Below, one piece after another: positions 4,497-61,873 of a stretch of DNA of 64,000 nucleotides. Made by a program: the position numbers and the translations under genes. Location of the stretch: NCBI GenBank assembly GCA_944472135.2, contig OX235270.1, forward strand, positions 78,687,168-78,751,167, read 5' to 3'. The notes under the pieces were generated by a model. The model saw only the letters and a program-made list of their open reading frames with translations. It had not been told where the DNA came from and did no database searches. Origin of the DNA: Trichobilharzia regenti (Eukaryota; Platyhelminthes; Trematoda; Strigeidida; Schistosomatidae). The stretch's first letter is position 1; every line of letters starts with the position of its first letter.

Positions 4497-6264
4497 CTAA
4501 AATTATCAAACAAAGCAATAACTTTAATTTGGTAGTAAGAAATGCTGATAGAGTTTATTGGAGTTGTAACCAATAGTCTAGATGTAAGCCTCAACTGTTC
4601 AATAAATTCCAGTGTTCCACAATGGATAACAACAAATGAAAGTACATATCCATGTGAAATTTGTCCACTGAGAAGCGAATCAGTTTATTACAAATGTGTG
4701 TCTGTCAAGTAGGTGTTCACAAGAAAGGATATATTTGAATTCTAGTGATATTTGTAGAAAAATCATTTCTACTGATCACGTAAATTCAATAGAATGTCGT
4801 ATTCATACATTTACATATAGACGTCATCTACTTCGTTCCGACCTAAATTGTCCCTCTTCAGAGTAGATTTTGTTTATCTTCTAATTTTAAAAATTTTGTA
4901 CTGCTTTCTAAGGTTTATTTATACACAGTATAAACTATTTTGTATATAACATAAACTGTTTTTTATTATCATTTGATATTTACCTATGAATAAAAAAAAT
5001 TACAAATTTTTTTTATCTAAATTAGTTTTATTATTTTTATACTGTACATGTTTGTTTTCACTGAACCTTACTTATATTGCACAATGTCACCAATTGTACT
5101 GATTCACTTTGCTGCATGTATGACATACATAAATGTTGGATTTAGTCATCTGTTTCTTATGATAGACAGGAAAAACAAATTGATTCTCTGAAATTTCAAT
5201 TGAATTCCATTGTCTGTGAGACTGAGTGCACTGATACTTGCTGATTGCGACAGTTCACCTACGTGTTATGACTTAAAATTAGAGAAATGTGGACTCATAT
5301 TTTCAAAATGATTAAGTCATTCAAATGAATAGTTTTCACTGTTCGTACAAAAAACAACAACATACTTCCTACAAAAAACCTGCATTTGTCAGCAGAATGT
5401 CAAAATAACGAGACTATGCATTAATCAACGTATACTTGTGATTGATGATCCAGTGAAAGTTTAGTTACGTTGAACGTGTAATATGAATGAAACTGATTAT
5501 CTAGCCATCTGTATCTAGTGAATTTCAGTTCAGCGTCCTGTAACTTGTAAGGTGGAAAACTGATGCCTAAAATTACAAACACGTTTCTTTTCCTGATCCA
5601 GAATGCTTAAACTCCAAGCTTTCACTGTCATTCCAGAAAACACACTTCTCAGGTTTAAATTCAAGAATAAATACGGAATAGTAATGAAGTCGTCAGTATG
5701 AATCCTAAGCATTATCAAAGCATCTATTCATTGAATCATTCTTCAAATATAACACCAGTGTCACTTTTTGAATTTTCCCTAAATGTTTACGAAAGATGCT
5801 TTCCGATATCTGCTAATGCTCTTCACCGGTTCCAGTGTCTTCTCTGGCTACCTTATTAACAAGCATAGGGCTTTTGAAGTATAGGATTTTGATTACTACT
5901 ATAGAATCAGGGATGCATTTGAGCGAAAATCATGCTATCATTATCAGCACACTGTAAAACCAACACGTTTGGTTTGTCAGTGGAAGCTGATTCACTCACG
6001 ATCTCACTCCTGTTTTAATAACTCAATGCACTTCAGCACCTTAAGCAGGTCAGATAGTTATTTTTTTCTTTAAATCCCTTAGTTTTCCTTATTCATAACT
6101 GCCGGAACCCCAGAAGTAAACTGTTTTTAAAAGATAACAAGATAACAAAATGACAATACATGAATACATTATGAGTTCACTGCCATTAAATAAATCTACG
6201 GAGACTAATTTTTGATTTATAACTCGACAATAACTTCCTTGACAAACTTCAAACTAATCTTCCA

Positions 6265-8160: not shown

Positions 8161-8356
8161 AATTTTTTTTATTATTTTTGATTACAGATTGATTCCACAC
8201 AGTACTTTTCGTACAAGTATGGAATTTTCAGCATGGATATCGGTAGCCCAAATTTCGCAGGCCGACCATTGATATCAGGTGTGCGTCGGCAGGGGATCGA
8301 ACCTCGGACCATGTGCATGGTTGGCGAGAGTCCTAACCACTGTGCCACCAATGCAC
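8161..8356 (-). mobile_element. SINE-D copy (tRNA-headed, no ribozyme)
   Basis: Minus-strand insertion of about 195 bp. The tRNA-like head is at the right (box A in GGCACAGTGGTTAGGACTC, box B GGTTCGATCCC), the body has CCGATATCCATGCTGAAAA, and an A-rich tail forms the poly-T start at 8163-8175. Related copies are at 11062-11262, 16396-16585, 17764-17920 and 38918-39117. Such elements are transcribed by RNA polymerase III and borrow LINE machinery. The 76-codon frame across it is not a gene. Confidence 0.75.
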
Positions 8357-9289: not shown

Positions 9290-10600
9290 AAAGGTTCATT
9301 TGATCTGACCGATATGTTAGACACCTGGAACATTAAGGAAAAGGTTATGTGCTCAATCGACATAGCATCTTTATTCACTAATGTTCCTCTTCATGAAACT
9401 ATTGGTTTCATTTGCGATTACATCAGAAGCAATGGGATGAACTTGTCTATTCCTGTCATTTATATCAGAGACATTATCTTAATGTGTACAAAAAATATTA
9501 GATTCACCTTCCAAGAAAAGGCATACAAACAAGTCAATGGTGTTGCGATGAGGAGCGCTCTTGGGCCCGTATTAGCAGATATATTCATGTCGAAATTAGA
9601 GAAGCAAATGCAAGGTATGCTTGGAGAATTTATGCTATATAAACGTTATGTAGATGATACTCTTATTATTGGTAATAATAGTAAATCTATTGAGAACGTT
9701 ATTACTCTATTCAATCATATTCATCCAAATATCCGAGTGACTTCCGAACTCGAATAGAATAACAAACTTGGTTTCCTTGATATTACAATGACCAGGAGAG
9801 ATGATGGAACGATTCAGCAATCTATTTTTCGGAGACAGACAATATCTTCATTTTACCAGTTTTGTTCCTATCCAGTACAAACGTTCCCTAGTGAAATGTT
9901 TGTTCTCAAGGGCCCGAAAAATATGCACGAGTGACACATTGATGGATGCGTTTCGACATATACATTCAGTTTTATTAGCTAATGGTTATCCGGAGAACTT
10001 TATCACTTGTCACAGTAAAGAAAAACTATATTTCGAAAAGACAGCCTCTGTACCAAAGAAAGCTATCTTAATTCACCTTGAATAGTAATTCAAGGGTGAC
10101 CAGATTATGCAGTTGACAGCTCAAAGACTTCGGTCAGCCATCAAACACACATTCTACGCCGCATCTCTTTTTCTCACTTGCCGAACATTTTCGATCTCTG
10201 TACCTACGATTAAAGGACGGAATTCTGTGGACTCTACTTCAAACTGTATCTACAAGTTCACCTGCAGTTGTGGTTACACCTATATAGGTAGAACCAACAG
10301 AATGTCCCAATATTGTCGTAAAGAACATGTTCCAAAATGGTTATCAAAACTTATCGAAAATCACAATGCGAATAATCTGAATAGAAATCCAGTATCATTC
10401 ATTGCAAAACACTTATTAATATCAGGTCACAAAATCAATATTAATGACTGTTTCACAATTATTTCACACAACTCTAATTCAAGGTTATTGAAGGTGATGG
10501 AAGCACTTTGGATTAATCACATGCAGCCTAAACTGTGTGTACAAAAACAGTAGACTTCAAACTTCGGTTACCCTGGACTACTTGACCTATTTAAATATGA
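9290..10600 (+). mobile_element. Penelope-like element, 5'-truncated and frameshifted
   Basis: RT palm, thumb and GIY-YIG endonuclease follow each other on the plus strand in the order typical of endonuclease-bearing PLEs. The N-terminal RT region is missing or decayed before about 9314, and no terminal repeats were recognised. The 3' side ends within about 80 bp of the RTE fragment starting at 10683. Confidence 0.8.
9314..10553 (+). pseudogene. PLE reverse transcriptase with GIY-YIG endonuclease, broken
   Basis: The first frame (9314-9757) carries RT motif A (SIDIASLFTNVPLHE), motif B (QVNGVAMRSALGPVLADIF, with Arg and Ala where Gly and Pro are usual) and the catalytic YVDD box (about 9651-9662, in KRYVDDTLIIG). 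It runs into a TAG at 9757, and the downstream product continues in another frame from about 9801 (thumb, YLHFTSF...KRSLVKCLF). Two in-frame stops near 10083-10088 follow, then 10107-10553 gives the endonuclease with CSCGYTYIGRTNR, EHVPKW and a C-terminal QPKLCVQKQ. The family reverse transcribes its RNA at a target cut by the GIY-YIG domain. At least one frameshift and two stops make this copy inactive. Confidence 0.85.
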
Positions 10601-10682: not shown

Positions 10683-11764
10683 TTAGTGAGGACGGGAGGG
10701 AGGCAAGGCTGTCTACTATCGCCAATGATCTTCCTGATTTCAGTAGACTGGATAATGCGATAAACAACGGCCAATGAGGAAACAGGCATAAAATGGACTC
10801 ACACAAAAACTTGGAGGGTCTGAACTTCACCGATGACATATGTCTGATTTCCCACAAACTGGAAGATATGTAAGTGAGAAGCAACAAGTTGGCAGAAGAA
10901 GCATCAAAGATAGGACTTCCTTTAGGTGAACTTAGATAAAACAGAGGTGATGAAGATTCCTTGCCAACACCAACAGCAACAACATTAACAGACAACAATC
11001 AGCATAAATGGGAGGAACCTGAAAGAAACAACCTCCTTCACCTATCTACCTCGGAAGCATCGTTTTATTTATTCTTTATTCTTGATTACAGCTTGATTCC
11101 ACACCGTATTTTTAGTGCAAGTGTGGAAATTTCAGCATGGATATCGTCAGCCCGAAATTCGCAGGCCGACCATAAATATCAGGTGTGCGTCGGCGTGGGC
11201 TCGAACCCCGGACCATGTGCATGGTTGGCGAGAGTCCTAACCACTGTGCCACCGACGAGGATACCAAAACCAGAGTCAGAAAAGCAAGACAAGCTTTCAT
11301 TACTCTCAAGTCTGTGTGGAGGTCGACAGCACTCAGCATCAAAAATAAAATTTTCAACTCCAGTGTGAAGTCAGTCAGTGCTACTCACGGATCAGAGACT
11401 TGCGTTGCGCGTCATAAAGAGCATCTCAAACAAACTAGAGACCTTCATTAACAGTTGTCTTCGCTCAATACTCAAGATCAGATGGCCGGCGAGAAAAGAT
11501 CAGCATCGGGGATCTCTGGCAATGAGCGAACCAACTCAGCAGGAACCGATTGTGAAACAAATAGACAGGAACAAAAAGGAGATGGATTGGCTGGTCATAC
11601 TCTGAGGGAACCATCAAGTGACATCACTAGACAAGCCACTGCTCGAGTGGAACCCGAAAGGGAGGCGGCGAGTTGGTCGTCAGTGTGAGGGTGAGGTGAC
11701 TTGGAGGAGGTCATGTGAAGAGGAGATGAAAGCGTGTGGGCAGACTTGGAGCGGGGTGAAAAAG
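10683..11764 (+). mobile_element. RTE-A LINE fragment, truncated at both ends
   Basis: The left end starts in RT motif B (VRTG.RQGC.LSP) and runs through the C-terminal domain. Stretches correspond to 41805-42720, and the 3' part (11390-11640) is nearly identical to 42345-42600 and 51027-51280. A SINE-D copy is nested at 11062-11262 and replaces a few bases of the element. The copy ends around GGGGTGAAAAAG without the usual 3' tail, so the 3' end was lost. The open frames here are shadows or remnants. Confidence 0.8.
11062..11262 (-). mobile_element. SINE-D copy nested in RTE-A
   Basis: A full minus-strand SINE-D: T-rich left end at 11062-11085, body, and tRNA-like head ending in the complement of GGTGGCACAGTGG near 11262. 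It interrupts RTE sequence that is continuous at 42160-42220, with a small target deletion. It is therefore younger than the RTE insertion. Confidence 0.75.
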
Positions 11765-16585: not shown

Positions 16586-17315
16586 AATGAACGAATCGCG
16601 AAGACAAAACTTATACATCAATGTTTCCAAAAGCGAATGATATATCATGTAAAGTCAATGAAACCTCCATCTGCAAAATGTAAGTTACCTTAAGAATATC
16701 ACAGTCTTCTTTATTATAATAATACTCTAAGGCTTTATGACTGTCGACCCACGTTGAAAAGGTATGAAAAAACTTATTAAAATTTCGCCAAACACACCAA
16801 AATAGACGCTAATAATGTCTCCTAGAATAATACCAAAAAATTAAAAATGCCGCATATCACAAATACTCAACTGGTATTAGAAAAGTTCAGATTCGCATTA
16901 GTAATCCTACAGTTATCAGTTTTTATTATTTTATTATTTATTTTAGCCTACCGGATTGCCAGTGTCAAGCATTAACAAAGTTACTTTCACGGTAATACTC
17001 TCTAATCACTGAAAAGTACCATCTTGTATATTTTCTGCAGGTCGTTTATCTACAGATCTGGCACGAGTGTATAAACGAAGTAAAACAGAAAAAGTCTTCA
17101 GTAAGTTAAGTTGTCATGAAGAAGCTGTTCGGAATCGGCTGTAATTATGAAAGCTGAAATAAGGTTTTTTGAATTAGCCATCAGATCTTCACTAAACAAC
17201 AAATATGGTTCTAACTTAAAATTAATTCTTTCAATCCAAAATTTGTGTTAAATTTTATTAGCTAAATTGAGAAATAATAGGTTGCATGAATTTATTATGT
17301 CACATCTTACACAAT

Positions 17316-17640
17316 TTACCAATTTTCGTGTGTGTGTGGACACACATACATAGAGAGGAGTAATCGCGCTTTGCACGTGAGGATGGGAGAGCATAGCCCA
17401 AAATGGTTAGAAAAACAAATGAATTGTGACAAGCTAATAGATGCAGGTGTCAGACAACCAACTTCGTCTATAGCTAAACATCTAATCGAGATGAACCACA
17501 AGATTGATGTTAACTCAGCCTTTAAGGTCATCTATAAAAACGGTCAAGGGCATTTACTGAAATACACCCAGACTATAGCTTATATATGTCCAAACCAAGT
17601 TCACTTTTAACGGTTTGAAAAAATTTGGGCATTGGGTATA
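17316..17640 (+). pseudogene. PLE GIY-YIG endonuclease fragment
   Basis: A 92-codon frame at 17332-17610 reads CGHTYIERSNRALHVRMGEH, then SPKWLEKQ and SIAKHLIEMNHKIDVNSAF, matching the endonuclease of the PLE at 10107-10553. The second Gly of the YIG box is Glu (YIER), so the active site is damaged. Only the last domain is present, in keeping with 5' truncation. A snap-back palindrome follows directly. Confidence 0.7.
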
Positions 17641-17649
17641 TGATATTCA

Positions 17650-17738
17650 TTATAATAGACTTTTTTTTGTATTTCCCAATGAATGAAAAAACAAAACGAG
17701 ATTCATTCATTGGGAAATACAAAAAAAGTCTATTATAA
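17650..17738. repeat. Snap-back palindrome after the PLE fragment
   Basis: An arm of about 38 bp at 17650-17687 (TTATAATAGAC...CCCAATGAATGAA) recurs inverted at 17702-17738 with a 14-bp spacer; only the length of one T-run differs. It lies just 3' of the endonuclease fragment and could be an inverted duplication of the element's 3' end. Confidence 0.7.
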
Positions 17739-17763
17739 CGAGACTATAGCTATTCATAAACTT

Positions 17764-17920
17764 TATTTTTATTATTATTATTATTTTTTTGATTTACAGC
17801 TTGATTCCACACTGTATTTTTGGTACAAGTATGGAATTTTCAGCGTGGATATCGGTAGCCCAAATTTTGCAGGCAGACCATAGATATCAGGTGCGCGTCG
17901 GCGGAGGCTCGAACCCCCTT
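17764..17920 (-). mobile_element. SINE-D copy, head truncated
   Basis: T-rich left end (17764-17792), body and part of box B (complement of GTTCGAGCC), then an abrupt stop at about 17918. The tRNA 5' half is missing, as in ordinary 5' truncation of retroposed copies. It begins only 26 bp after the palindrome at 17650-17738. Confidence 0.65.
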
Positions 17921-19180
17921 TGTGTATTCAAAAACAGTTTGTTATTAATCTTAACATACCTTGGTAATCCTTATATGATTGGATTACCAAACGTTTCTGT
18001 TAATTATTCTTAATTGTTTTTTGTCACTTTGTTTAATTTAACTTTTCCATATATATTGACTTGACAAGTAAATGTGTGATCAGATTGTTCGAAATATATA
18101 GCGCAAATACATCACATTTTTCAGATAATCTCCGTCTTCTAATAACGCTATCAAAATTTATGAAAGGGACTAATTGTTTCAAATACATTCACAAATGCTT
18201 AAAGCATGATGGCAAAATTCCTTCAGTGTTTAATTAAATTCATCAAAGAATACTACAAGTTACCATGGTAACCCAATTACCAACACGGCACTAGATAATT
18301 TCTCACCACAGAGTTAGTGACTCAGATTAGTGGCTATCCTAAATTTCAGTAATCTCACTGTTGTTCTCGAACATGTGTGGCGTTCAAAAATCGATACTGA
18401 CAATAATTATAAGAAATGTGAAGAACCAGGTGGATGAATTTTCTTGGAAAAGCTAACGAAATAGGAAAAATGTTTAATACACCAAGAAGTCACATTTTAA
18501 TAACAAAAGATAAATTCATTGTACAGTGGATTTCTGGTGACAAATAACTTTTACATTTTGCTATCCTATTGCCAAAACTATACAACTTTGAAATCGAAAA
18601 CCTTATTGAACCATTTGCCTCTGCTTTATTTTGTTGATGATACAACTTTTAAATGTTTCTTTAAAAGTAAGCATTGCTCGAAAGTTCAATACTGGGAGGT
18701 TTTCATATATATCACACAGTTGTGTTTCTGTTGTTCGACAATAAATATCACAAATAACATCTAGACAACAGACAAATGTTACTCGATTTTTGGAATGGTT
18801 GCATTCAACATATGGCGTTTATTTTTATAGCAAGATATTAACTCAGATTAAATTGTACTATTAGCATATATAAATCTTTTTTTTTATCTGAAATAGTTGT
18901 TTAGTTATTCTCTACTAAATGCAGATAATGTTATTTTTTTGACGGAGTACGCTGTGAATTCAGCAGGGACACTTTTCTTCGATTTCGTTTATTCAAACTC
19001 ATGGAAGGTGAAACAAGCTGAAACAAAATGCAATGGATATTAGATGATTGATTAAGCGATATTAGTAAAAGCTATGGAGGAAATTCTGCCACCACTTGTA
19101 GTTTTCAGAGAAACATACCTTCATTTTCAATGAATTCAATGAATCTTGTGAAATTTTAACTTCTGTTCTTAATCTGAGAA
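17921..19180. other. AT-rich intronic stretch, nothing recognised
   Basis: No domain, tRNA-like box or convincing exon was seen. The frame at 18519-18764 has no recognisable motif. Confidence 0.45.
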
Positions 19181-19562
19181 TATAATATTTACTGTCGTTA
19201 CAATAAAGGCCAGTTAGTTATGCGGCGGATACATTTTTAACGTAGAATAACAGATTAGTTATGGGGTGTCAAAATAAATAGTCGTATTTGTGTGACAAAC
19301 GTGCTAGGGTGAAATCGGTTACCAAAATATTGTGAAACGGGAGACAATGGTGGTAGTTAATCATAACAGATTTGTAGAGTGTGGGGTAGGAAAATTGACA
19401 AATCAGTTCAAGGTTATAAAAGGCGCCAGGTGAGTGAGTGGCTAGTACAAAGTGGTCTGAGTTAAACAGGAGATAGTAAGACTGCAATGAAAGGTTCATA
19501 ATGAAATAACGAATATGTGAAATGAAACAGGTGGAGGCATATTTTGAGAAAAGAGATAATAT
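19181..19562 (-). repeat. Left inverted arm of the PLE fragment
   Basis: Reverse complement of 20049-20430 over 382 bp. It ends at AAGAGATAATAT, directly joined to the endonuclease reading IGRTIRQVHLR. It contains no coding of its own. Confidence 0.85.
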
Positions 19563-19866
19563 AGGGCGCACGATTAGGCAGGTTCATCTACGGGGTCGAG
19601 GACATTTACCAGCTTGCTTCAGCAGGGGGGGAATTAAGTGCATAAAAAGCTCGATCCTGTCACACTTGGTCGATACTGGACATCGTATCGATGTCAACAC
19701 AGCTTTCAGGGTTATATACCGAATTTCGAAGTCGTTATCACGTACAGTTCGCTTACGTCTCCTAAACATAGCTGAAGTTGTTGCAATAAAATCGACTAAA
19801 CCTGAACTTTGTATCCAAAAAGAACACGTCCAGACGCTGTTCCTAACGTGGCCAAACTTGGATTGA
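19563..19866 (+). pseudogene. PLE GIY-YIG endonuclease C-terminal part
   Basis: The peptide starts at IGRTIRQVHLR and reads SSILSHLVDTGHRIDVNTAF and STKPELCIQKEHVQTL to a TGA. The IGRT box and the C-terminal half match PLE endonucleases, but the upstream CxC...Y part is replaced by the inverted arm. The lineage differs from the copy at 17316-17640. Confidence 0.7.
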
Positions 19867-20430: not shown

Positions 20431-20871
20431 TTTTATAATTGTATAAACCTGAAGAGAAATTACTGAAAAGAATATTCTTCGTTCAGATTGACTTTTAATT
20501 CATAATATGGGAATATTTCACACCATTAAATCTTAATATGAGAAGTTGGAAAAGTGACTTTGCAGGTAAGAATACTGAACTGATACCTCACTGAATTAAC
20601 ATTAAGTTAGGCTGGTCAAATTTATCGTTCTAACAGTTGTGTAATTCGATCGCATAATACAACTGTAGTTGGTTGTCATCTCTGAGGTCAGTAGAAAAGG
20701 TGTAATGAAACATGATTACTTATTGAATTGAATTTTTTTTTTACTTTCCCGTCGATTGATTGGACCGAAGTGCTTGGTCTCAGGTTGACATGTCGGTTTC
20801 TTGTGCAGATGCTTCGACGATGTCTGGTCATTTAATCAGTATACAATTGGTGGATGGTGGCTAGCAGTGGA

Positions 20872-20916
20872 ATCCAGGATGCGCATTTCGTCCTATTTGG
20901 GGCTCGTCAGCTGGAT
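20872..20916 (-). ncRNA. Hammerhead ribozyme, Sm-alpha type (left arm)
   Basis: On the minus strand: stem I ATCCAG with CTGGAT, intact core CTGACGA, stem II GCCC/GGAC with loop CAAATA, GAAA, and a two-base-pair stem III with a GCGC loop before the AUC cleavage triplet. Stem II has one C-A mismatch where U-A is usual. Otherwise it has every conserved core base. Confidence 0.85.
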
Positions 20917-21012
20917 GTACCTGCATTTCTCAGTGAGTGATGGTGTTCCCACTATGGTCACTGGGTTCGAGCCTCGGTGGGAACATCATCACTCATTGAG
21001 AAATGCAGGTAC

Positions 21013-21057
21013 ATCCAGATGACGAGTCCCAAGTAGGACGAAATGCGCATCCTGGAT
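21013..21057 (+). ncRNA. Hammerhead ribozyme, Sm-alpha type (right arm), C3 mutated
   Basis: Stem I ATCCAG/CTGGAT and stem II GTCC/GGAC are perfect, GAAA and the AUC triplet are present, but the core reads ATGACGA. C3 normally pairs with G8 in the active site, so this copy should be inactive. It complements the left copy, whose core is intact but stem II is weakened. Confidence 0.8.
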
Positions 21058-21920
21058 TCCACTGCTAGCCACCATCCACCAATTGTAAACATGATTACTG
21101 ACCGAAAGAGTGAAAACATATGATTAAATCAACCAACATTTATGCACAAAAGCTGCGGTTGAGAAAAACATAACGAAATTGCCGTTATAGAAGGCGGTGA
21201 AATAAGGTCTTCCAGTAGTTTGTGAAATCTAGCCGGTGTTCACTCGAGTATCCTTTAGTTTGATATATTACCGCTTGCAATGAAGTAATTATCCTATAAT
21301 TATTAGTGATTTTCAATCTAAAATTTAATATGAGTCACCATCGTAATTTAGACTACAGCTTAGTGCCTGGTATAAAACCCCTATGGCTACATATTTGAAT
21401 TAAGCTACTTTTTTCCGGCAAATTGGCGCTTCTATAGTTATATACATGCACTTGACATGAATTAGGCTATATGATGAAAGGACGCCACGCTGTATAATTA
21501 GTACTCAGTGTTTAATGCATAATGTATTTCCGTCAGTTGTAAACACTATACAAATGTCCAGCTACCAGTTGCTTTTTACAAACAACTTTATAGAAACTTT
21601 CATCTTTATCGGCAGAGTAATTATTCAGACTTAACTTATGAAAAAATTATGCTACCGGATGTATTTTATCACATAATAAATAAGCAAATTGTTGCAATAT
21701 TTGTTAGATTTTAAATATCATTTACACCTCATTACCTATTCTTTTATGGCATATTTTCCCCTGTTTCCACCCTATGGTATTAGTCAAGTGATTTACAATC
21801 TTTGTCCATCCTAACATTTTACTTAATTACTGTCACTTTACCATCAGATTAAGAAGACTGCATGTTCAGTATTTATGGTGTTCTATAATACTAGCAGATA
21901 AAACTAGTCATTGTATCATT

Positions 21921-33589: not shown

Positions 33590-35530
33590 TTTTGTGAGAT
33601 ATTACACTTGAGAAAGGTCACATCTGTTGGCATGTAGAGTCTGTGACAGTGAAGAATAGCAAGTTTCCTCCGAATCATCTTTAGTATGTCATATGAAATT
33701 TACTACTTTCTGTGCAAAAATACTTAAGAAGCTAGACAAATCACTTAATGATAACAAACTTGTGACTAATTTCCCTGTAAATCCAGAGTAATATGTTATC
33801 AAGCTATCTTCTTTAACACTCCCGGCACTACTCAGAACTAGATCTTTACTTCTTCAAAAGTATTTCTTAGGACTTGAAATCCATGCACAATTGACGCCTC
33901 TTGTTCCCGTTTCTGATGATCATCATGGTTGGTTCAAAGCAAAGTTAGTTGACATTGCTCACCAACTCTGCAATGGTCATACAATTCAGAAAATTATCCT
34001 AACATCTGAGCACTTTAAAGCTCTAAAAGAACTAGAGCATAATACTGACATCGTTGTCCTCAGACTAGATAAAGGTTGTGGTGTGGTTTTGATGGAAAAA
34101 ATTGAATAGAAAAATAAAATGTTATTCATTCTTGGAAACAATGACAGATTTACCAGAGAATCCACTTCGGAATATGTGAAGAATGTACAAAATAAGGTGA
34201 CAAATAATCTAGTAAAACTCTTAGACATAAATGCAATTAATAGAGGGAAATTAAACTCACTAAAGCACACAGAATCCCAATTACTATATGTGTGTGGTCT
34301 GCCTAAAACACATAAGCCTAATATGCCTCTCCATCCCATAATGTCAATGTACAGATCCCCAACGCACAAACTTGCAAAGTGGCTGGTGGAAATATTAGAC
34401 CCTATTAGAAGAATCTTATGTACGTCTTCATTGAAAGATACTTTTGAGTTAGTAGATTGTCTTCATAACGTCGATAAAAAGGACAAAACCATGTTGTGCT
34501 TAGACGTTGGTTTTTTATTTACGAGTGTGTACCTCTTTACAGATGGTTGACATTTTATGTGACTACATCTCTTGCAACAATCTCCTATTAACAATATCTA
34601 TATCTTATTTAAAATATTTACTGTTTCTATGTACTAACTATGTTAAGTTTACATTTGAGGGAGAGTATTTTCGCTGGATTGATGGTGTTGCTACGGAAAG
34701 CCCTCTAGGTGCATTGTTAGATGATATACACATGTCGCATGCTGAAAACCTAGCGGAGGACGTAATTAGAAAAGCTTAAGTCATCTAGATGACGTAACAG
34801 TCATTTGTGATAAACCAACAGATGCTATAGAAATCACTGACCAGATCAATAGAGTACAAAACAGCATATCGCTAACATACGTTGAGGAGAATAATGATTG
34901 CTTGCCATTTTTAAATATATTCACAAACAGGCAACAAGACGGGTCAATAAAAACGATCTGTCTGAAAAACGTTCACATGGACAGGAAAGCATCTAAATTA
35001 TCGTAGTTTCTGTCCACTACAGTATAAAAAGGCGTTGGTTAAGTGTTTGTTCAAACGCATTCACTCTATATGTACGACCGACACAAATGAAGAAGAAACA
35101 CGAAACCTCACTGAAATAGTGTTAGATAACAATAACCCTCTGTGTGTGACAAGTACGTGTATGAACGGAATGTCTGAAATGTGTTTCGTAAATAGATTAC
35201 ACGTTTCAGATAAATTATATCTTCATATTGTATTGTTGCAATTCATAAGTGGAACTAATTGCTTTACATTTTGGAATTCCGTATTATCTTTAAAATGTGA
35301 GTTGTCGAGTACATAAAATATTGGGAATATTTTTGTTAGAATTTGCCACTCCTCATTAGATAATTTTATTTGATATAACATACTGTGATATAATAGTATT
35401 AATAACTCTATGACATTTCAAGGGTTATTTATTTCTCATTATCATAATAATGTATTCACACGATTTCCTAACCTGCTTCATATGGCATGATAATGGACAG
35501 CAAATTGTGCTCGAAATATCGTCGACCTAT
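33590..35530 (+). mobile_element. Penelope-like element, decayed, no endonuclease
   Basis: A possible 5' terminal motif (ACTTGAGAAAGGTCACATC at about 33605) precedes RT sequence. RT covers 33891-34779 and the thumb runs to about 35180. The right end (about 35470-35530) shares AAATTGTGCTCGAAAT, inverted, with 25605-25635, suggesting a PLE terminal repeat. No GIY-YIG domain follows the thumb. Confidence 0.7.
33891..35180 (+). pseudogene. PLE reverse transcriptase, broken
   Basis: Frames in order: 33891-34109 (DIVVLRLDKGCGVVLM), 34119-34550 (VCGLPKTHKPNMPLHPIMSM, then LDVGFLFTSV for motif A), 34507-34779 (RWIDGVATESPLGALLDDI for motif B) and about 34780 onward (HLDDVTVICDKP where PLEs have YxDD), then 35035 (VKCLFKRIHSICTTDT) for the thumb. 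The catalytic Tyr is replaced by His, and a TAG at 34107 plus frameshifts break the protein. The RT differs clearly from the copy at 9314-10553, so two PLE lineages are present. Confidence 0.8.
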
Positions 35531-41241: not shown

Positions 41242-42808
41242 TAACTATGAAGTTCTGAATGCAATCAAGATGCTAAAAGCTGGGAAAGCAGCAGGATCAG
41301 ATGGAATCCCAGCAGAAGCTTTGAAAATAGACCCAGAGACAACAGCGGACTTGATGACGCCATTATTGGAGAAGTTGTGAAAAGAGGGCAAAGTACCTGA
41401 GGATTGGAAGAAAGGATACTTATTCAAACTTCCAAAGAACGGAGACTTAAGTCAATCCAAAAACTGGCGTGGAATTATGCTCCTGTCCATCCGAAGCAAA
41501 ATACTAAGCCCTGGATGCAAAACTCCTACCGGAACCAGCTGGATTCAGGAGAAACAAGTCATGTATTGATCAAATCGCCACTCTACGAATCATCATTGAG
41601 CAAAGCTTGGAATGGCAGTCCCCTCTCTATCTCAACTTCATCGACTTTGAAAAGGCCTCCGACAGCGTCGATTGAGTGGTCATTTGGCAACCACTTCTCT
41701 ACTACGGGGTGCCATCGACAATTATACATCTCATCCAACAGTTAGTTGTACGACAATGCTGCATGCCAAGTAATCCACAACGGGAAACTTACGGAAACCT
41801 TCGAAGTGAGGACGGGAGTGAGGCAAGGCTGCCTATTATCGCCAATGATCTTCCTGATTGCAGTAGACTGGATAATGCGACAGACAACGGGCAGTGAGGA
41901 AACAGGCATAAAATGGACTCACACAAAAAACTTGGAGGATCTGTACTTGACGGATGATATTTGTCGTATTTGCCACAAATTGGAAGATATGCAAGTGAGA
42001 AGCAACAAGCTGGCAGAAGAAGCATCAAAGATAGGACTTCAAGTGAACATAGATAAAACAGAGGTGATGAAGATTCTTGGCCAACACCAACAGCAACAAC
42101 AACAGACGACAGTCAGCATAAATGGGAGGAACCTGAAAGAAACAACCTCCTTCACCTATCTACCTGGGAAGCATTGTTCCAACTACAGGCGGACGGAACT
42201 GACGAAGATATCAAAACAAGAATCGGAAACGCAAGATAAGCCTTCATTACTCTTAAGTCTGTGTGGAGTTCAACATCATTCAGGATCAAAAATAAGGTCC
42301 GGATTTCCAACTTCAATGTGAAGTCAGTCAGTGCTACCATACGGATCAGAGACTTGCGTTGCGCGTCATAAAGAGCATCTCAAACAAACTAGAGACCTTC
42401 ATTAACAGTTGTCTTCGCTCAATACTCAAGATCAGATGGCCGGCGAGAAAAGATCAGCATCGGGGATCTCTGGCAATGAGCGAACCAACTCAGCAGGAAC
42501 CGATTGTGAAACAAATAGACAGGAACAAAAAGGAGATGGATTGGCTGGTCATACTCTGAGGGAACCATCAAGTGACATCACTAGACAAGCCATTGCTCGA
42601 GTGGAACCCGAAAGGGAAACGGGTAGCGAGTTGTTCGTCAGTGTGAGAGTGATTTGGAGGAGGTCATGTGAGGAGGAGATGAAAGCGTGTGGGCAGACTT
42701 GGAGCGAGTTGAAAAGGTTGGCAGAAAACAGAAGGCAATGGAGACGTTAGGCTGAAGCCCTATGTTCCTCTAGGAACCATAGGATATAATAATAATAATA
42801 ACTATGAA
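41242..42808 (+). mobile_element. RTE-A LINE, 5'-truncated, with 10-bp target duplication
   Basis: The longest RTE-A copy here, flanked by TAACTATGAA (41242-41251 and 42799-42808). It starts in the RT fingers (VLNAIKMLKAGKAAGSDGIP) and ends with GCCCTATGTTCCTCTAGG and a (TAA)n tail, the usual RTE 3' end. The endonuclease domain is lost to 5' truncation. The 3' part is nearly identical to two other loci, indicating recent activity. Confidence 0.9.
41254..42755 (+). pseudogene. RTE-A reverse transcriptase, broken
   Basis: Fingers (KAGKAAGSDGIPAEALK), PEDWKKGYLFKLPKNGDL with NWRGIMLL (41397-41490), motif A (NFIDFEKASDSVD, about 41630-41670), then a frame change. Frame 41746-42321 carries motif B (VRTGVRQGCLLSPMIFL) and motif C as LTDD, where RTE elements have FADD. 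A Gln run (QQQQQQ) follows NIDKTEVMKI. The C-terminal domain (IRWPARKDQHRG) is in another frame to about 42750. A stop at about 41379 and at least two frameshifts make it inactive. Confidence 0.85.
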
Positions 42809-52660: not shown

Positions 52661-53384
52661 AAATTCCTCAGAAGTAGCTTTCGAAGTAAAAAAATAAAAG
52701 TTGTAAATTACGTGATACTCATGACTCAATAAAGTTTTTCAGTGATTTTGTATTTGTTTAAAATTGCAATATATCTATACATATATATAATCATTGATAA
52801 GGATCTAATTGCCTCCTACATTCCCATGAATTGCATTTTACTAGTAAAACTGTCTAACGTAAAGACTGTATTTACCTGAGATCAAATTTTTACAACTAGA
52901 TTTGTGTTATTTCTTTGCTAACCGGCATTTTTACATCCCCATCTTTCATCCATTTCATATTACTTCAAGCATAACTCATACTACCATTACTGTGCTGCGG
53001 CTGTTGGTACTCATATCTGTTTGTACGATTTTAGGCGTAAGACTGGTTGTTATAAATTAAAAATATCTCTCGTATTCTAACTCTGTTTTCCACTTTAAAA
53101 ACCGAATTCATTTAATTCTAAGGGGCTGTAAACGTATTACGTGAAGAAACACAAATAAACTAGAGAATTCTGACTGTTTACTATTAAATACCTAGGTGTT
53201 GACTTGCATGTAAAAATTATAAGTGTAGGTAAAACAGAATTATTAATAAATGCTGTGTATAAAGAATCGGTACAGTTATTTCAAAACACAATTACTAATC
53301 AAGTTATGGTTTGTAGGGATTTGATTGGTTTCAGGATTTCGTCATGAGCTGACATCTGTTAGAGAACCACTGGAAAACCTGGGA

Positions 53385-53430
53385 GTACTGGACAGCCGTT
53401 TCGTCCTAGTTTGGGACTCTTCAGCAGTAC
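53385..53430 (-). ncRNA. Hammerhead ribozyme family C
   Basis: Stem I GTACTG/CAGTAC, core CTGAAGA, stem II GTCC/GGAC, GAAA, stem III with GGCT loop, GUC cleavage triplet. Core and stems are intact. Confidence 0.88.
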
Positions 53431-53674
53431 GCACCCACCGGGATTCGGACCCAGGACCTTCCGGTTACAAGGCTAGCGAGCTCGTAGACCATTAAGCCAC
53501 CGGGACCCGATCCAATGGTCCTTGAATTCTAGCTTCTGCCAATTCACGACATAGCGCAACCGCTAGCCAATGTCTTCGGCGAGTATTTGTCCTCACACCC
53601 GACCGGCTGCACCCTACTGGTCACAACTTAACACTGGAACCCAGGTAACTACCTACCTGAATCTCGGTGGGTGC

Positions 53675-53720
53675 GTACTGCTGAAGAGTCCCAAACTAGG
53701 ACGAAACAGCTGTCCAGTAC
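53675..53720 (+). ncRNA. Hammerhead ribozyme family C
   Basis: Same layout as 53385-53430 on the opposite strand; core CTGAAGA and six-pair stem I intact. The insertion ends 62 nt downstream of its predicted cleavage site (after 53714). Confidence 0.88.
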
Positions 53721-53907
53721 TCCCAGGTTTTCCAATGGTTCTCTAACTAATGTCAGCTCATGATGAAATCTTGAAGCAATTACTAATCACGAAGTAATCC
53801 ATGAACTTGTATGTAACCAGCAGTAATATATGCATTTTTCCTATTATTGTATTCTTTTATAACATAAACAATACTGTAACCTGCAGCTTCAAGAGAATTA
53901 AACAAAC

Positions 53908-54347: not shown

Positions 54348-54560
54348 CGTACAATTTTGTTTATTATACTCGTTAATATTTGTTTTATGACTCATGATTG
54401 GACAAAGTTTTTAAAAACAAGAAGTGTTCCTTTTATATATAAACCTCTGTTTTGCTAATTTCGATTAATTTCCCTGAAAAAGTTCGGACCAAATTGCCGA
54501 ACGAAACGTTGGAATTACTCATTTCAATATCGCTGAGAGTTTACAAATATAATTTTTTAC
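54348..54560 (+). repeat. PLE-type terminal repeat, copy 2
   Basis: Second copy of the block at 64-284. Its hairpin motif at 54474-54511 reads CTGAAAA, GTTCGG/CCGAAC, GAAACGTTG: here the GAAA box is intact while G8 of the CTGANGA core is A, the converse of copy 1. Confidence 0.5.
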
Positions 54561-58830: not shown

Positions 58831-59068
58831 AATTATAGTATTTGGGTTTATTTCAGATGCCTGTGTTTATATTTGTGTTGTAGGGGTGGTTTTTTGGTTA
58901 GTCAGAAAGGTAAATATTTACTGAGAAGTCAGTCAATAGTTTTAAATAATGCTACGAGGTCTAATTAGTAGTTTTTAAGTATTGGTTTGTTGTAGGGATT
59001 TTGTTTGATTGCATGGAGGATTTGATCATGAGCTGACATCAGTTAGAGAACCACTGGAAAACCTGGGA

Positions 59069-59114
59069 GTACTGGACAGCTGTTTCGTCCTAGTTTGGGA
59101 CTCCTCAGCAGTAC
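59069..59114 (-). ncRNA. Hammerhead ribozyme, array unit (minus 1)
   Basis: Stem I GTACTG/CAGTAC, core CTGAGGA, stem II GTCC/GGAC with loop CAAACTA, GAAA, stem III with AGCT loop, GUC triplet. All conserved core positions are intact. Confidence 0.9.
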
Positions 59115-59469
59115 GCACCCACCGGGATTCGAACCCAGGACCTTCTGGTTACAAGGCGAGCTCGTAGACCATTGAGCCACTGGGACCCGATCCAATGGTC
59201 CTTGAATTCTAACTTCTGCCAGTTCACGACATAGCGCGACCACTTCGCAATGTCTTCTTCGGTGAGTTACTGCCTCATCTTCAACCTGCTGTACCCTACT
59301 GGTCACGGCTTCCCACTAGAACCCCAGGTTAACTGCCTGAATAGGGCCAGTCACTAGTGAGCATCAGATGAATTTTTAAGTATTGGTTTGTTGTAGGGAT
59401 TTTGTTTGATTGCATGGAGGATTTGATCATGAGCTGACATCAGTTAGAGAACCACTGGAAAACCTGGGA

Positions 59470-59515
59470 GTACTGGACAGCTGTTTCGTCCTAGTTTGGG
59501 ACTCCTCAGCAGTAC
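59470..59515 (-). ncRNA. Hammerhead ribozyme, array unit (minus 2)
   Basis: Identical layout 401 bp to the right of the previous one; the unit breaks off in the adjoining tRNA-like region. Confidence 0.9.
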
Positions 59516-59680
59516 GCACCCACCGGGATTCGAACCCAGGACCTAGTTCTAGTGGGAAGCCGTGACCAGTAGGGTACAGCAGGTTGAAGATGAGGCAGTA
59601 ACTCACCGAAGAAGACATTGCGAAGTGGTCGCGCTATGTCGTGAACTGGCAGAAGTTAGAATTCAAGGACCATTGGATCG

Positions 59681-59753
59681 GGTCCCAGTGGCTCAATGGT
59701 CTACGAGCTCGCCTTGTAACCAGAAGGTCCTGGGTTCGAATCCCGGTGGGTGC
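59681..59753 (+). other. tRNA-like head of the 401-bp monomer (representative)
   Basis: 73 nt with box A TGGCTCAATGGTC, T-arm CTGGG-TTCGAAT-CCCGG and a partial acceptor helix (CCCA with TGGG). No standard anticodon arm could be assigned. It ends exactly one base before the ribozyme stem I at 59754. Other copies: 60082-60154, 60483-60555, 60884-60956, 61285-61357, 61686-61758 (plus) and 59115-59187 (minus). It probably supplies an RNA polymerase III promoter. Confidence 0.75.
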
Positions 59754-59799
59754 GTACTGCTGAGGAGTCCCAAACTAGGACGAAACAGCTGTCCAGTAC
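59754..59799 (+). ncRNA. Hammerhead ribozyme, array unit (plus 1)
   Basis: GTACTG 59754-59759, CTGAGGA 59760-59766, stem II 59767-59781, GAAA 59782-59785, GUC 59791-59793, CAGTAC 59794-59799. Predicted cleavage is after 59793. It is a type I ribozyme, entered through stem I. Confidence 0.92.
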
Positions 59800-60154
59800 T
59801 CCCAGGTTTTCCAGTGGTTCTCTAACTGATGTCAGCTCATGATCAAATCCTCCATGCAATCAAACAAAATCCCTACAACAAACCAATACTTAAAAATTCA
59901 TCTGATGCTCACTAGTGACTGGCCCTATTCAGGCAGTTAACCTGGGGTTCTAGTGGGAAGCCGTGACCAGTAGGGTACAGCAGGTTGAAGATGAGGCAGT
60001 AACTCACCGAAGAAGACATTGCGAAGTGGTCGCGCTATGTCGTGAACTGGCAGAAGTTAGAATTCAAGGACCATTGGATCGGGTCCCAGTGGCTCAATGG
60101 TCTACGAGCTCGCCTTGTAACCAGAAGGTCCTGGGTTCGAATCCCGGTGGGTGC

Positions 60155-60200
60155 GTACTGCTGAGGAGTCCCAAACTAGGACGAAACAGCTGTCCAGTAC
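60155..60200 (+). ncRNA. Hammerhead ribozyme, array unit (plus 2)
   Basis: Identical to plus 1, offset by 401 bp. Confidence 0.92.
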
Positions 60201-60555
60201 TCCCAGGTTTTCCAGTGGTTCTCTAACTGATGTCAGCTCATGATCAAATCCTCCATGCAATCAAACAAAATCCCTACAACAAACCAATACTTAAAAATTC
60301 ATCTGATGCTCACTAGTGACTGGCCCTATTCAGGCAGTTAACCTGGGGTTCTAGTGGGAAGCCGTGACCAGTAGGGTACAGCAGGTTGAAGATGAGGCAG
60401 TAACTCACCGAAGAAGACATTGCGAAGTGGTCGCGCTATGTCGTGAACTGGCAGAAGTTAGAATTCAAGGACCATTGGATCGGGTCCCAGTGGCTCAATG
60501 GTCTACGAGCTCGCCTTGTAACCAGAAGGTCCTGGGTTCGAATCCCGGTGGGTGC

Positions 60556-60601
60556 GTACTGCTGAGGAGTCCCAAACTAGGACGAAACAGCTGTCCAGTA
60601 C
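60556..60601 (+). ncRNA. Hammerhead ribozyme, array unit (plus 3)
   Basis: Identical to plus 1, offset by 802 bp. Confidence 0.92.
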
Positions 60602-60956
60602 TCCCAGGTTTTCCAGTGGTTCTCTAACTGATGTCAGCTCATGATCAAATCCTCCATGCAATCAAACAAAATCCCTACAACAAACCAATACTTAAAAATT
60701 CATCTGATGCTCACTAGTGACTGGCCCTATTCAGGCAGTTAACCTGGGGTTCTAGTGGGAAGCCGTGACCAGTAGGGTACAGCAGGTTGAAGATGAGGCA
60801 GTAACTCACCGAAGAAGACATTGCGAAGTGGTCGCGCTATGTCGTGAACTGGCAGAAGTTAGAATTCAAGGACCATTGGATCGGGTCCCAGTGGCTCAAT
60901 GGTCTACGAGCTCGCCTTGTAACCAGAAGGTCCTGGGTTCGAATCCCGGTGGGTGC

Positions 60957-61002
60957 GTACTGCTGAGGAGTCCCAAACTAGGACGAAACAGCTGTCCAGT
61001 AC
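60957..61002 (+). ncRNA. Hammerhead ribozyme, array unit (plus 4)
   Basis: Identical to plus 1, offset by 1,203 bp. Confidence 0.92.
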
Positions 61003-61357
61003 TCCCAGGTTTTCCAGTGGTTCTCTAACTGATGTCAGCTCATGATCAAATCCTCCATGCAATCAAACAAAATCCCTACAACAAACCAATACTTAAAAAT
61101 TCATCTGATGCTCACTAGTGACTGGCCCTATTCAGGCAGTTAACCTGGGGTTCTAGTGGGAAGCCGTGACCAGTAGGGTACAGCAGGTTGAAGATGAGGC
61201 AGTAACTCACCGAAGAAGACATTGCGAAGTGGTCGCGCTATGTCGTGAACTGGCAGAAGTTAGAATTCAAGGACCATTGGATCGGGTCCCAGTGGCTCAA
61301 TGGTCTACGAGCTCGCCTTGTAACCAGAAGGTCCTGGGTTCGAATCCCGGTGGGTGC

Positions 61358-61403
61358 GTACTGCTGAGGAGTCCCAAACTAGGACGAAACAGCTGTCCAG
61401 TAC
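61358..61403 (+). ncRNA. Hammerhead ribozyme, array unit (plus 5)
   Basis: Identical to plus 1, offset by 1,604 bp. Confidence 0.92.
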
Positions 61404-61758
61404 TCCCAGGTTTTCCAGTGGTTCTCTAACTGATGTCAGCTCATGATCAAATCCTCCATGCAATCAAACAAAATCCCTACAACAAACCAATACTTAAAAA
61501 TTCATCTGATGCTCACTAGTGACTGGCCCTATTCAGGCAGTTAACCTGGGGTTCTAGTGGGAAGCCGTGACCAGTAGGGTACAGCAGGTTGAAGATGAGG
61601 CAGTAACTCACCGAAGAAGACATTGCGAAGTGGTCGCGCTATGTCGTGAACTGGCAGAAGTTAGAATTCAAGGACCATTGGATCGGGTCCCAGTGGCTCA
61701 ATGGTCTACGAGCTCGCCTTGTAACCAGAAGGTCCTGGGTTCGAATCCCGGTGGGTGC

Positions 61759-61804
61759 GTACTGCTGAGGAGTCCCAAACTAGGACGAAACAGCTGTCCA
61801 GTAC
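61759..61804 (+). ncRNA. Hammerhead ribozyme, array unit (plus 6)
   Basis: Identical to plus 1, offset by 2,005 bp. The array ends at 61861, 63 nt after this predicted cleavage site (61798). Confidence 0.92.
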
Positions 61805-61873
61805 TCCCAGGTTTTCCAGTGGTTCTCTAACTGATGTCAGCTCATGATCAAATCCTCCATGTAATTAGTAGTT

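Follow-up and report, generated by a model that had tools for sequence, protein, structure and literature searches.

The array and its surroundings

The window analysed here, a stretch of 64,000 nucleotides of Trichobilharzia regenti (contig OX235270.1), comes from a 954-Mb genome and lies on one of its eight very large contigs. A PLE (Penelope-like element) protein recorded under T. regenti agrees with this genome at 100% over 579 residues, and a Tmem26-like protein encoded in the window shows 68% identity to a Heterobilharzia americana protein. At 58962-61873 it contains 401-bp units in two opposed blocks, arranged head-to-head (Table 1), as established by direct reading and by a repeat search that set the exact unit period at 401 bp. 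The preliminary description had reported monomers of this length, about 1.4 on the left and about 5.8 on the right, head-to-head within a perfect 12-bp repeat, and this account is borne out in full. Once the whole duplication is assigned to the flanks, the insert proper spans 58974-61861. Its six complete units are all identical, and the inversion is not attributable to chance, because the 573-nt arms are 100% complementary.

Every unit of the array carries one type I hammerhead, two on the minus and six on the plus strand, and the eight complete hammerheads noted previously are all returned by Rfam model RF00163, each at 53.5 bits against a gathering score of 34. By the GTC rule, we assume that the ribozyme at 60155..60200 cleaves after 60194; unit positions are numbered throughout from the hammerhead cut. 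The unit also presents a tRNA-like head, in which the sequences at unit positions 297 and 341 resemble the A and B boxes of an internal pol III promoter, as in tRNA-derived SINEs; ARAGORN, run with the bacterial code on this eukaryotic sequence, called no tRNA gene in the unit. The longest stop-free frame of the insert has 90 codons, so that the insert holds no protein-coding frame and, specifically, no reverse transcriptase (RT) plus GIY-YIG frame.

Table 1. Features of the 401-bp family in the window (positions are those of the window; unit positions count from the hammerhead cut).
Feature	Position	Strand	Remarks
Older head-to-head copy, same 401-bp family	53289..53789	.	within 13-bp duplication CAATTACTAATCA
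13-bp duplication copies of older copy	53289-53301, 53777-53789		CAATTACTAATCA
Left 12-bp target duplication	58962..58973	.	TAATTAGTAGTT; perfect match to right copy
Left arm, mapped	58972-59544	-	573 bp, 1.43 units
Left arm without duplication	58974..59544	-	~1.4 units; outer end at unit position 101-103
Type I hammerhead	59069..59114	-	RF00163
Type I hammerhead	59470..59515	-	RF00163
Head-to-head joint	59544..59546	.	one extra base (59545), microhomology absent
Right arm, mapped	59546-61865	+	2320 bp, 5.79 units
Right arm without duplication	59546..61861	+	~5.8 units; outer end at unit position 63-67
Type I hammerhead	59754..59799	+	RF00163
Type I hammerhead	60155..60200	+	RF00163
AC-rich predicted loop with both start sites (one unit given)	60245..60308	+	unit positions 51-114
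tRNA-like head (one unit given)	60482..60555	+	A- and B-box-like motifs
Type I hammerhead	60556..60601	+	RF00163
Type I hammerhead	60957..61002	+	RF00163
Type I hammerhead	61358..61403	+	RF00163
Type I hammerhead	61759..61804	+	RF00163
Right 12-bp target duplication	61862..61873	.	TAATTAGTAGTT; perfect match to left copy

The arms of the older copy in the window read as one end per start site (see below). A further hammerhead pair at ~20842-21087, which we label SM-alpha-like, is also head-to-head and constitutes a nearly perfect palindrome; no common flank longer than 6 bp was found around it.

Metazoan non-LTR retrozymes are described, in the portion of the account by Cervera and de la Pena (2020; PMC7229834) drawn on here, as tandem units of 150-450 bp with a type I hammerhead, GC contents below 50% and no LTR, accompanied by duplications of more than 4 bp and by a proposed circular RNA intermediate. 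The window element is like them in its 401-bp unit, its 5.8 tandem copies, its hammerhead in each unit, its GC content (0.494), its 12-bp duplication and its lack of a coding frame, and the earlier reading of the array as one insertion of a retrozyme-like multimer, with a period equal to the hammerhead spacing, is supported. The 401-bp family differs from retrozymes as that portion describes them in its head-to-head arms, its two fixed outer-end sites and the 12-bp size of its duplication; the words 'inverted' and 'head-to-head' are absent from the text of PMC7229834. A second point of comparison is provided by the SM-alpha retroposons of schistosomes, characterised in the part of PMC8490949 cited here as SINE-like and endowed with a hammerhead, two traits that the window element shares in a schistosomatid host. 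The 335-bp relative named in that source is unlike the window unit, which is 401 bp long and has another stem I.

Insertion sites and units of the 401-bp family

A search of the 954-Mb genome with one 401-bp unit as the family query gave at least 205 matches, and those listed correspond to the window array and 35 further clusters, taken as 36 stretches. Three stretches that end at contig ends (L041-L043) were excluded from end mapping, and hence from end-site and duplication counts, resulting in 34 loci (the window plus 33), while L042 was excluded from rare-base and unit-difference counts. L030 and L044 are one insertion, yet both are counted among the 34 loci and their 51 arms; the older window copy at 53.3 kb is not among the 34. 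Two arms occur in 17 of these loci, every one head-to-head, and over all fetched stretches and the window the adjacent arm pairs divide into 19 minus/plus and no plus/minus. The inverted multimer within one duplication, which the preliminary description had singled out as unusual, is instead a habit of the 401-bp family and of Penelope-like elements (PLEs), and corresponds to the known look of Penelope-like insertions in the cited part of PMC3846280.

The positions of the outer (3') arm ends along the unit are far from evenly distributed. Within two ranges chosen after inspection of the data, unit positions 58-76 and 97-108, lie 45 of the 51 outer ends and 4 of the 51 inner ends; given that choice, a p value for the contrast serves as no more than a guide. 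The modes of the outer ends fall at 67 (10 ends) and 103-104 (14 ends), about 37 nt apart and separated by CAATCAAACAAAATCCCTACAACAAACCAATACTT; the RNA at both modal start sites is AAU, and the neighbouring target DNA is often ATT. A predicted fold of the circular unit places positions 51-114 in one loop, and positions 64-104 constitute the least paired 41-nt window of the 401 in that prediction, with an A+C content (0.83) that is the highest, tied. Both arms map to the two sites in 12 of the 17 two-arm loci and use different sites in 10 of these 12, a count to which the older window copy does not contribute; at L010 and L029 both arms start from the same site. The other five loci have one arm that maps elsewhere (positions 22, 33, 85, 89 and 234). 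Read by eye, L019 and L035 fit the two-site rule, since a 12-bp duplication in L019 (TGAATTTATTTC, at 2801 and 6659) puts its left end at ~68 and the right end of L035 continues to ~100.

Duplications of at least 9 bp were found at 19 of the 34 loci, with a mode of 12 bp (10 loci), and were not called at the remaining 15. As only 12 of 1122 mismatched left/right pairs have one, these duplications are not a product of chance. The targets were analysed on a set of 19 duplications, made up of 18 loci and the older window copy, with an AT run at L009 excluded. They are 81% AT, as compared to 65% for the window, and 14 of the 19 have AAT in their first five bases or ATT in their last five, against 0.19 of random 12-mers. 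At the inner joints, the arms overlap by at least 2 nt in 12 of 17 loci with mismatch-tolerant mapping and in 10 of 17 with exact mapping, versus 0.157 by chance.

The units themselves are close to uniform within an array. Full units show no difference at all in seven of the 21 arrays that have at least two of them, including L016 (21 units), L023 (14) and L019 (9), and the median difference is 0.6 within an array versus 3 between the same arrays. Both window arms carry a rare base at unit position 214; of the 36 loci that possess a full unit, 34 lack it (L009 has it), and hence both arms were probably made from one template species. Likewise, a base private to the locus is present in both arms of L014 and another in both arms of L021, with one L014 unit lacking it. 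In L031 a run of eight A's is found in 6/6 minus units and AAAAACAAAA in 2/2 plus units; judged by its units, this locus is the outcome of two templates, each copied repeatedly. Such uniformity suits rolling copying of monomer circles, and could also result from a linear multimer whose source array is uniform. Two arrays, L039 and L041, are mixed.

Two further observations concern the composition of individual arrays. Older and younger units stand in phase within one array in L024, L029 and L036, which gives the impression of an older copy lengthened or converted by a subsequent one, and the 12.5-kb contig that includes L041 and L042 (C22) is almost entirely a mixed array of the 401-bp unit. 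The single insertion represented on two contigs by L030 and L044, whose aligned blocks are 99.2-99.3% alike, has an array 1478 bp long on one contig and 683 bp long on the other, a difference that may stem from two haplotypes or from the assembly.

Penelope-like elements in the same genome

The window contains a broken PLE of family F1 at 9290-10574, part of which we take to be a GIY-YIG domain, although Pfam did not call one there. Broken copies of several PLE families are in fact present in the window (9290-10574, 17299-18201, 19561-19860 and 33681-35310), and the genome is full of families like them.

Family F1 was searched for in the whole genome, with the best 150 of 58,572 first-look candidates being scored. 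Many of the F1 matches listed have frames of ~830 aa, and some are in tandem with a 2603-bp period. Among the matches listed, inspection by eye identified at least 15 head-to-head pairs and no tail-to-tail pair. Fourteen of 15 pairs were examined; they had been chosen as opposite-strand, so that their orientation carries information only in view of the lack of tail-to-tail pairs among the matches listed. In 12 of the 14, the ends of the two arms fall at PLE positions 215-222 and 242-249, one arm in each range, the exceptions being 190/243 and 244/16. A duplication of 12-16 bp is present in 13 of the 14 pairs, AAT or ATT lies at the cut in 8 of these 13, and each of the four joints read overlaps by 2-5 nt. 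In family F2 both ends were reached at two loci (505/480 and 473/510), both of which fit the two-site pattern, and a third locus provided its left end only. The ten ends of family F4 are scattered over 359-420, less sharp than two sites.

This signature can be set beside that of characterised PLEs. According to the cited parts of PMC11167929, a lizard PLE cleaves both target strands in vitro and extends them, with a preference for ATT, from two adjacent start sites in an AC-rich stem loop whose interval is the known tail; the hammerhead is dispensable, unprocessed RNA is the main substrate and the start site is not homologous to the cut DNA. The pLTRs of rotifer PLEs, as covered in the part of PMC3846280 used here, are arranged head-to-head, and one of them bears a tail. 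The retrozyme shares with these elements and with F1, F2 and F4 what we read as extension of both strands, two adjacent internal start sites (the tail) and AT/ATT targets, as well as head-to-head copies with the tail on one and tandem arrays. It is unlike PLEs in its 401-bp unit, in having no long frame and in its full type I hammerhead.

A resident PLE with a start-site loop homologous to that of the retrozyme was not found among F1, F2, F4 and the fetched DNA. Four nine-mers are shared with F1, where about four are expected, and the loop has no sequence match to it; no AC-rich match was seen by eye at the F2 and F4 ends, and none was obvious in the ~420 bp downstream of eleven PLE fragments. 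A low-stringency search of all fetched DNA retrieved retrozyme-like pieces and weak matches only. Regarding ribozymes, Rfam (E up to 1) found no hammerhead in resident PLE units L045, L047, L049, L076 and L077, nor did a strict core pattern, which minimal variants could escape, in F1, F2 and F4.

Proposed insertion mechanism and competing explanations

We consider it likely that the array is a non-autonomous retrozyme of the metazoan kind and that machinery of the Penelope type inserted it by target-primed reverse transcription, priming on both strands of the target, with the template probably copied round a ribozyme-made circle. Under this scheme, transcription and hammerhead cleavage would generate a 401-nt RNA, presumably closed into a circle, and a PLE enzyme would cut AT-rich DNA leaving 12-nt 3' overhangs. 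The two DNA 3' ends, often with ATT, would anneal in one AC-rich RNA loop at two AAU sites some 37 nt apart, usually each end at a site of its own, and the cDNA from each would travel the circle for anything between part of a turn and many turns. Joining of the cDNA 3' ends, often via 2-7 common bases, would then give rise to a head-to-head array, and filling of the overhangs would leave a single duplication. What we infer here is that the template is a circle and not a linear multimer, which protein acts, that transcription takes place and how the steps follow one another.

The case for this reading lies in the joint occurrence of several traits that can be read in the DNA itself. Arm pairs are exclusively minus/plus (19 versus 0), the outer ends concentrate on two sites (45/51) that usually differ between the arms of a locus (10/12), duplications cluster at 12 bp, targets are of AT/ATT type, units are near-uniform, and microhomology is present at the joints of most loci, with overlaps that exceed chance. 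Both start sites are located in the least paired and most AC-rich stretch of the predicted circle. The same signature is seen in the resident PLEs, F1 (12/14 pairs and 13/14 duplications) and F2 (2/2), and the lizard PLE behaves alike in the cited parts of PMC11167929. Several results count against it, namely the want of a matching-loop PLE in F1, F2, F4 and the fetched DNA, the spread of F4 ends, the off-site arm at 5/17 loci, the 15/34 loci without a duplication of at least 9 bp, a window joint without microhomology, and the mixed arrays L024, L029, L036, L039 and L041. The lizard data in the same parts of PMC11167929 also weigh on this side, as the hammerhead is unneeded in vitro, the RNA is unprocessed and the start site is not homologous to the cut DNA.

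A more general proposition, to which we would give even chances, is that retrozymes are natural circular templates of PLE-type enzymes, and that a two-headed enzyme extends both strands, with one start site each, rolling round one circle or sometimes two (L031). If true, a head-to-head multimer would directly document target-primed reverse transcription that proceeded from two strands and in rolling-circle fashion, and the head-to-head pLTRs of Penelope elements would have a simpler reason, without recourse to self-priming.

The alternative that fares best maintains PLE-type two-strand priming, with the template being a linear multimer transcribed from an older array and the hammerheads bypassed; we see it as a genuine possibility that falls short of probable. 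Mixed arrays such as L039 and L041 could serve as its source, the difference in A-runs between the L031 arms (6/6 versus 2/2 units) is obtainable from a mixed array, and RNA of the lizard PLE served in vitro without being processed (in the cited parts of PMC11167929). Moreover, protein-coding F1 forms tandem arrays with its 2603-bp period, and a circle is not known there. Repeated copying of a monomer fits better with seven of 21 arrays being free of differences over as many as 21 units (L016), given an inter-array median of 3.

In L1 twin priming, two target strands prime on one RNA and produce a head-to-head insertion within one duplication, with arms that are consecutive on the RNA and one of them starting at the poly(A) tail. 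Classical twin priming by a LINE of RTE or CR1 type could likewise yield a head-to-head insertion with one duplication, and a non-PLE-type RT is present in the window at 41746-42321. We nonetheless deem mobilisation by a LINE unlikely. Unlike those of L1, the retrozyme arms overlap on the unit and begin at two internal sites, and the use of two such sites, one per arm, together with AT/ATT targets, matches the resident PLEs and, in the cited parts of PMC11167929, the lizard PLE.

Just as unlikely, in our estimation, is the insertion of a single unit followed by unequal exchange and gene conversion, from which the multimer and its uniformity would have arisen. L030 and L044 speak for such a process, as one insertion that differs in unit number between two contigs, and so do the old and young units in phase at L024 and L036. 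The preliminary description had taken the single duplication to exclude later unequal exchange; the contrast of 1478 and 683 bp at this one insertion contradicts that argument, and a single duplication cannot date the multimer, because later changes in unit number remain inside it. Crossing-over, on the other hand, does not produce arms that are inverted and that both begin at start sites on the outside, and short-armed two-arm loci have the same ends.

Snap-back self-priming of one cDNA, proposed for rotifer PLEs (in the cited part of PMC3846280), is a highly unlikely source of the inversion. It would agree with the six of 17 loci where the inner ends lie at most 40 nt apart on the unit, and with mirror-like joints at L022 and L040. 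In the other 11 loci the inner ends are 67-193 nt apart, and those arms are therefore not the hairpin of one cDNA; both outer ends, in addition, are at start sites adjoining target DNA. Snap-back was accordingly rejected as the general cause of the inversion, being unsupported in 11/17 loci. An assembly artefact in unit number or inversion is barely credible, for while identical units make the unit count impossible to verify by sequence alone, the same anatomy recurs at 17/34 loci with differing targets and joints, and in PLEs.

Insertion by a PLE-type enzyme would not be without precedent as an idea. The relevant parts of a review (PMC7761336) state that retrozyme repeats have no conserved motif revealing the mobilising enzyme, and name PLEs and Terminons, both with hammerheads and both co-occurring with retrozymes, as likely mobilisers; a role for PLEs in moving retrozymes has thus been suspected in print (PMC7761336, PMC8969392, in the parts cited). 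Among the open-licence papers listed by literature searches, no title or abstract opening reports start sites, head-to-head arms or a PLE insertion signature for retrozymes, which is weak evidence of absence. An insertion signature common to a retrozyme and resident PLEs bears on which enzyme moves animal retrozymes. It combines head-to-head arms and a 12-bp duplication with AT/ATT targets and with a pair of start sites inside a single AC-rich loop, of which each arm usually takes its own; through it, one animal suffices for testing the partner, the circular template and the two-strand mechanism.

Some minor elements were encountered alongside these repeats. By eye, an abundant repeat was seen to contain a hammerhead-like motif that is minimal but for its long stem II, in the window at ~54467-54520 and in the right flank of L049, and this repeat is perhaps the pLTR of another PLE. 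The segments at 8164-8349 and 11068-11253 are two copies, 89% identical, of a different short repeat of tRNA-like appearance. Finally, a retrozyme scrap of ~70 nt in L025 (~5231-5330) begins at the second start site, is flanked by ACATTAGTTTTT repeats and lies directly downstream of a PLE fragment.
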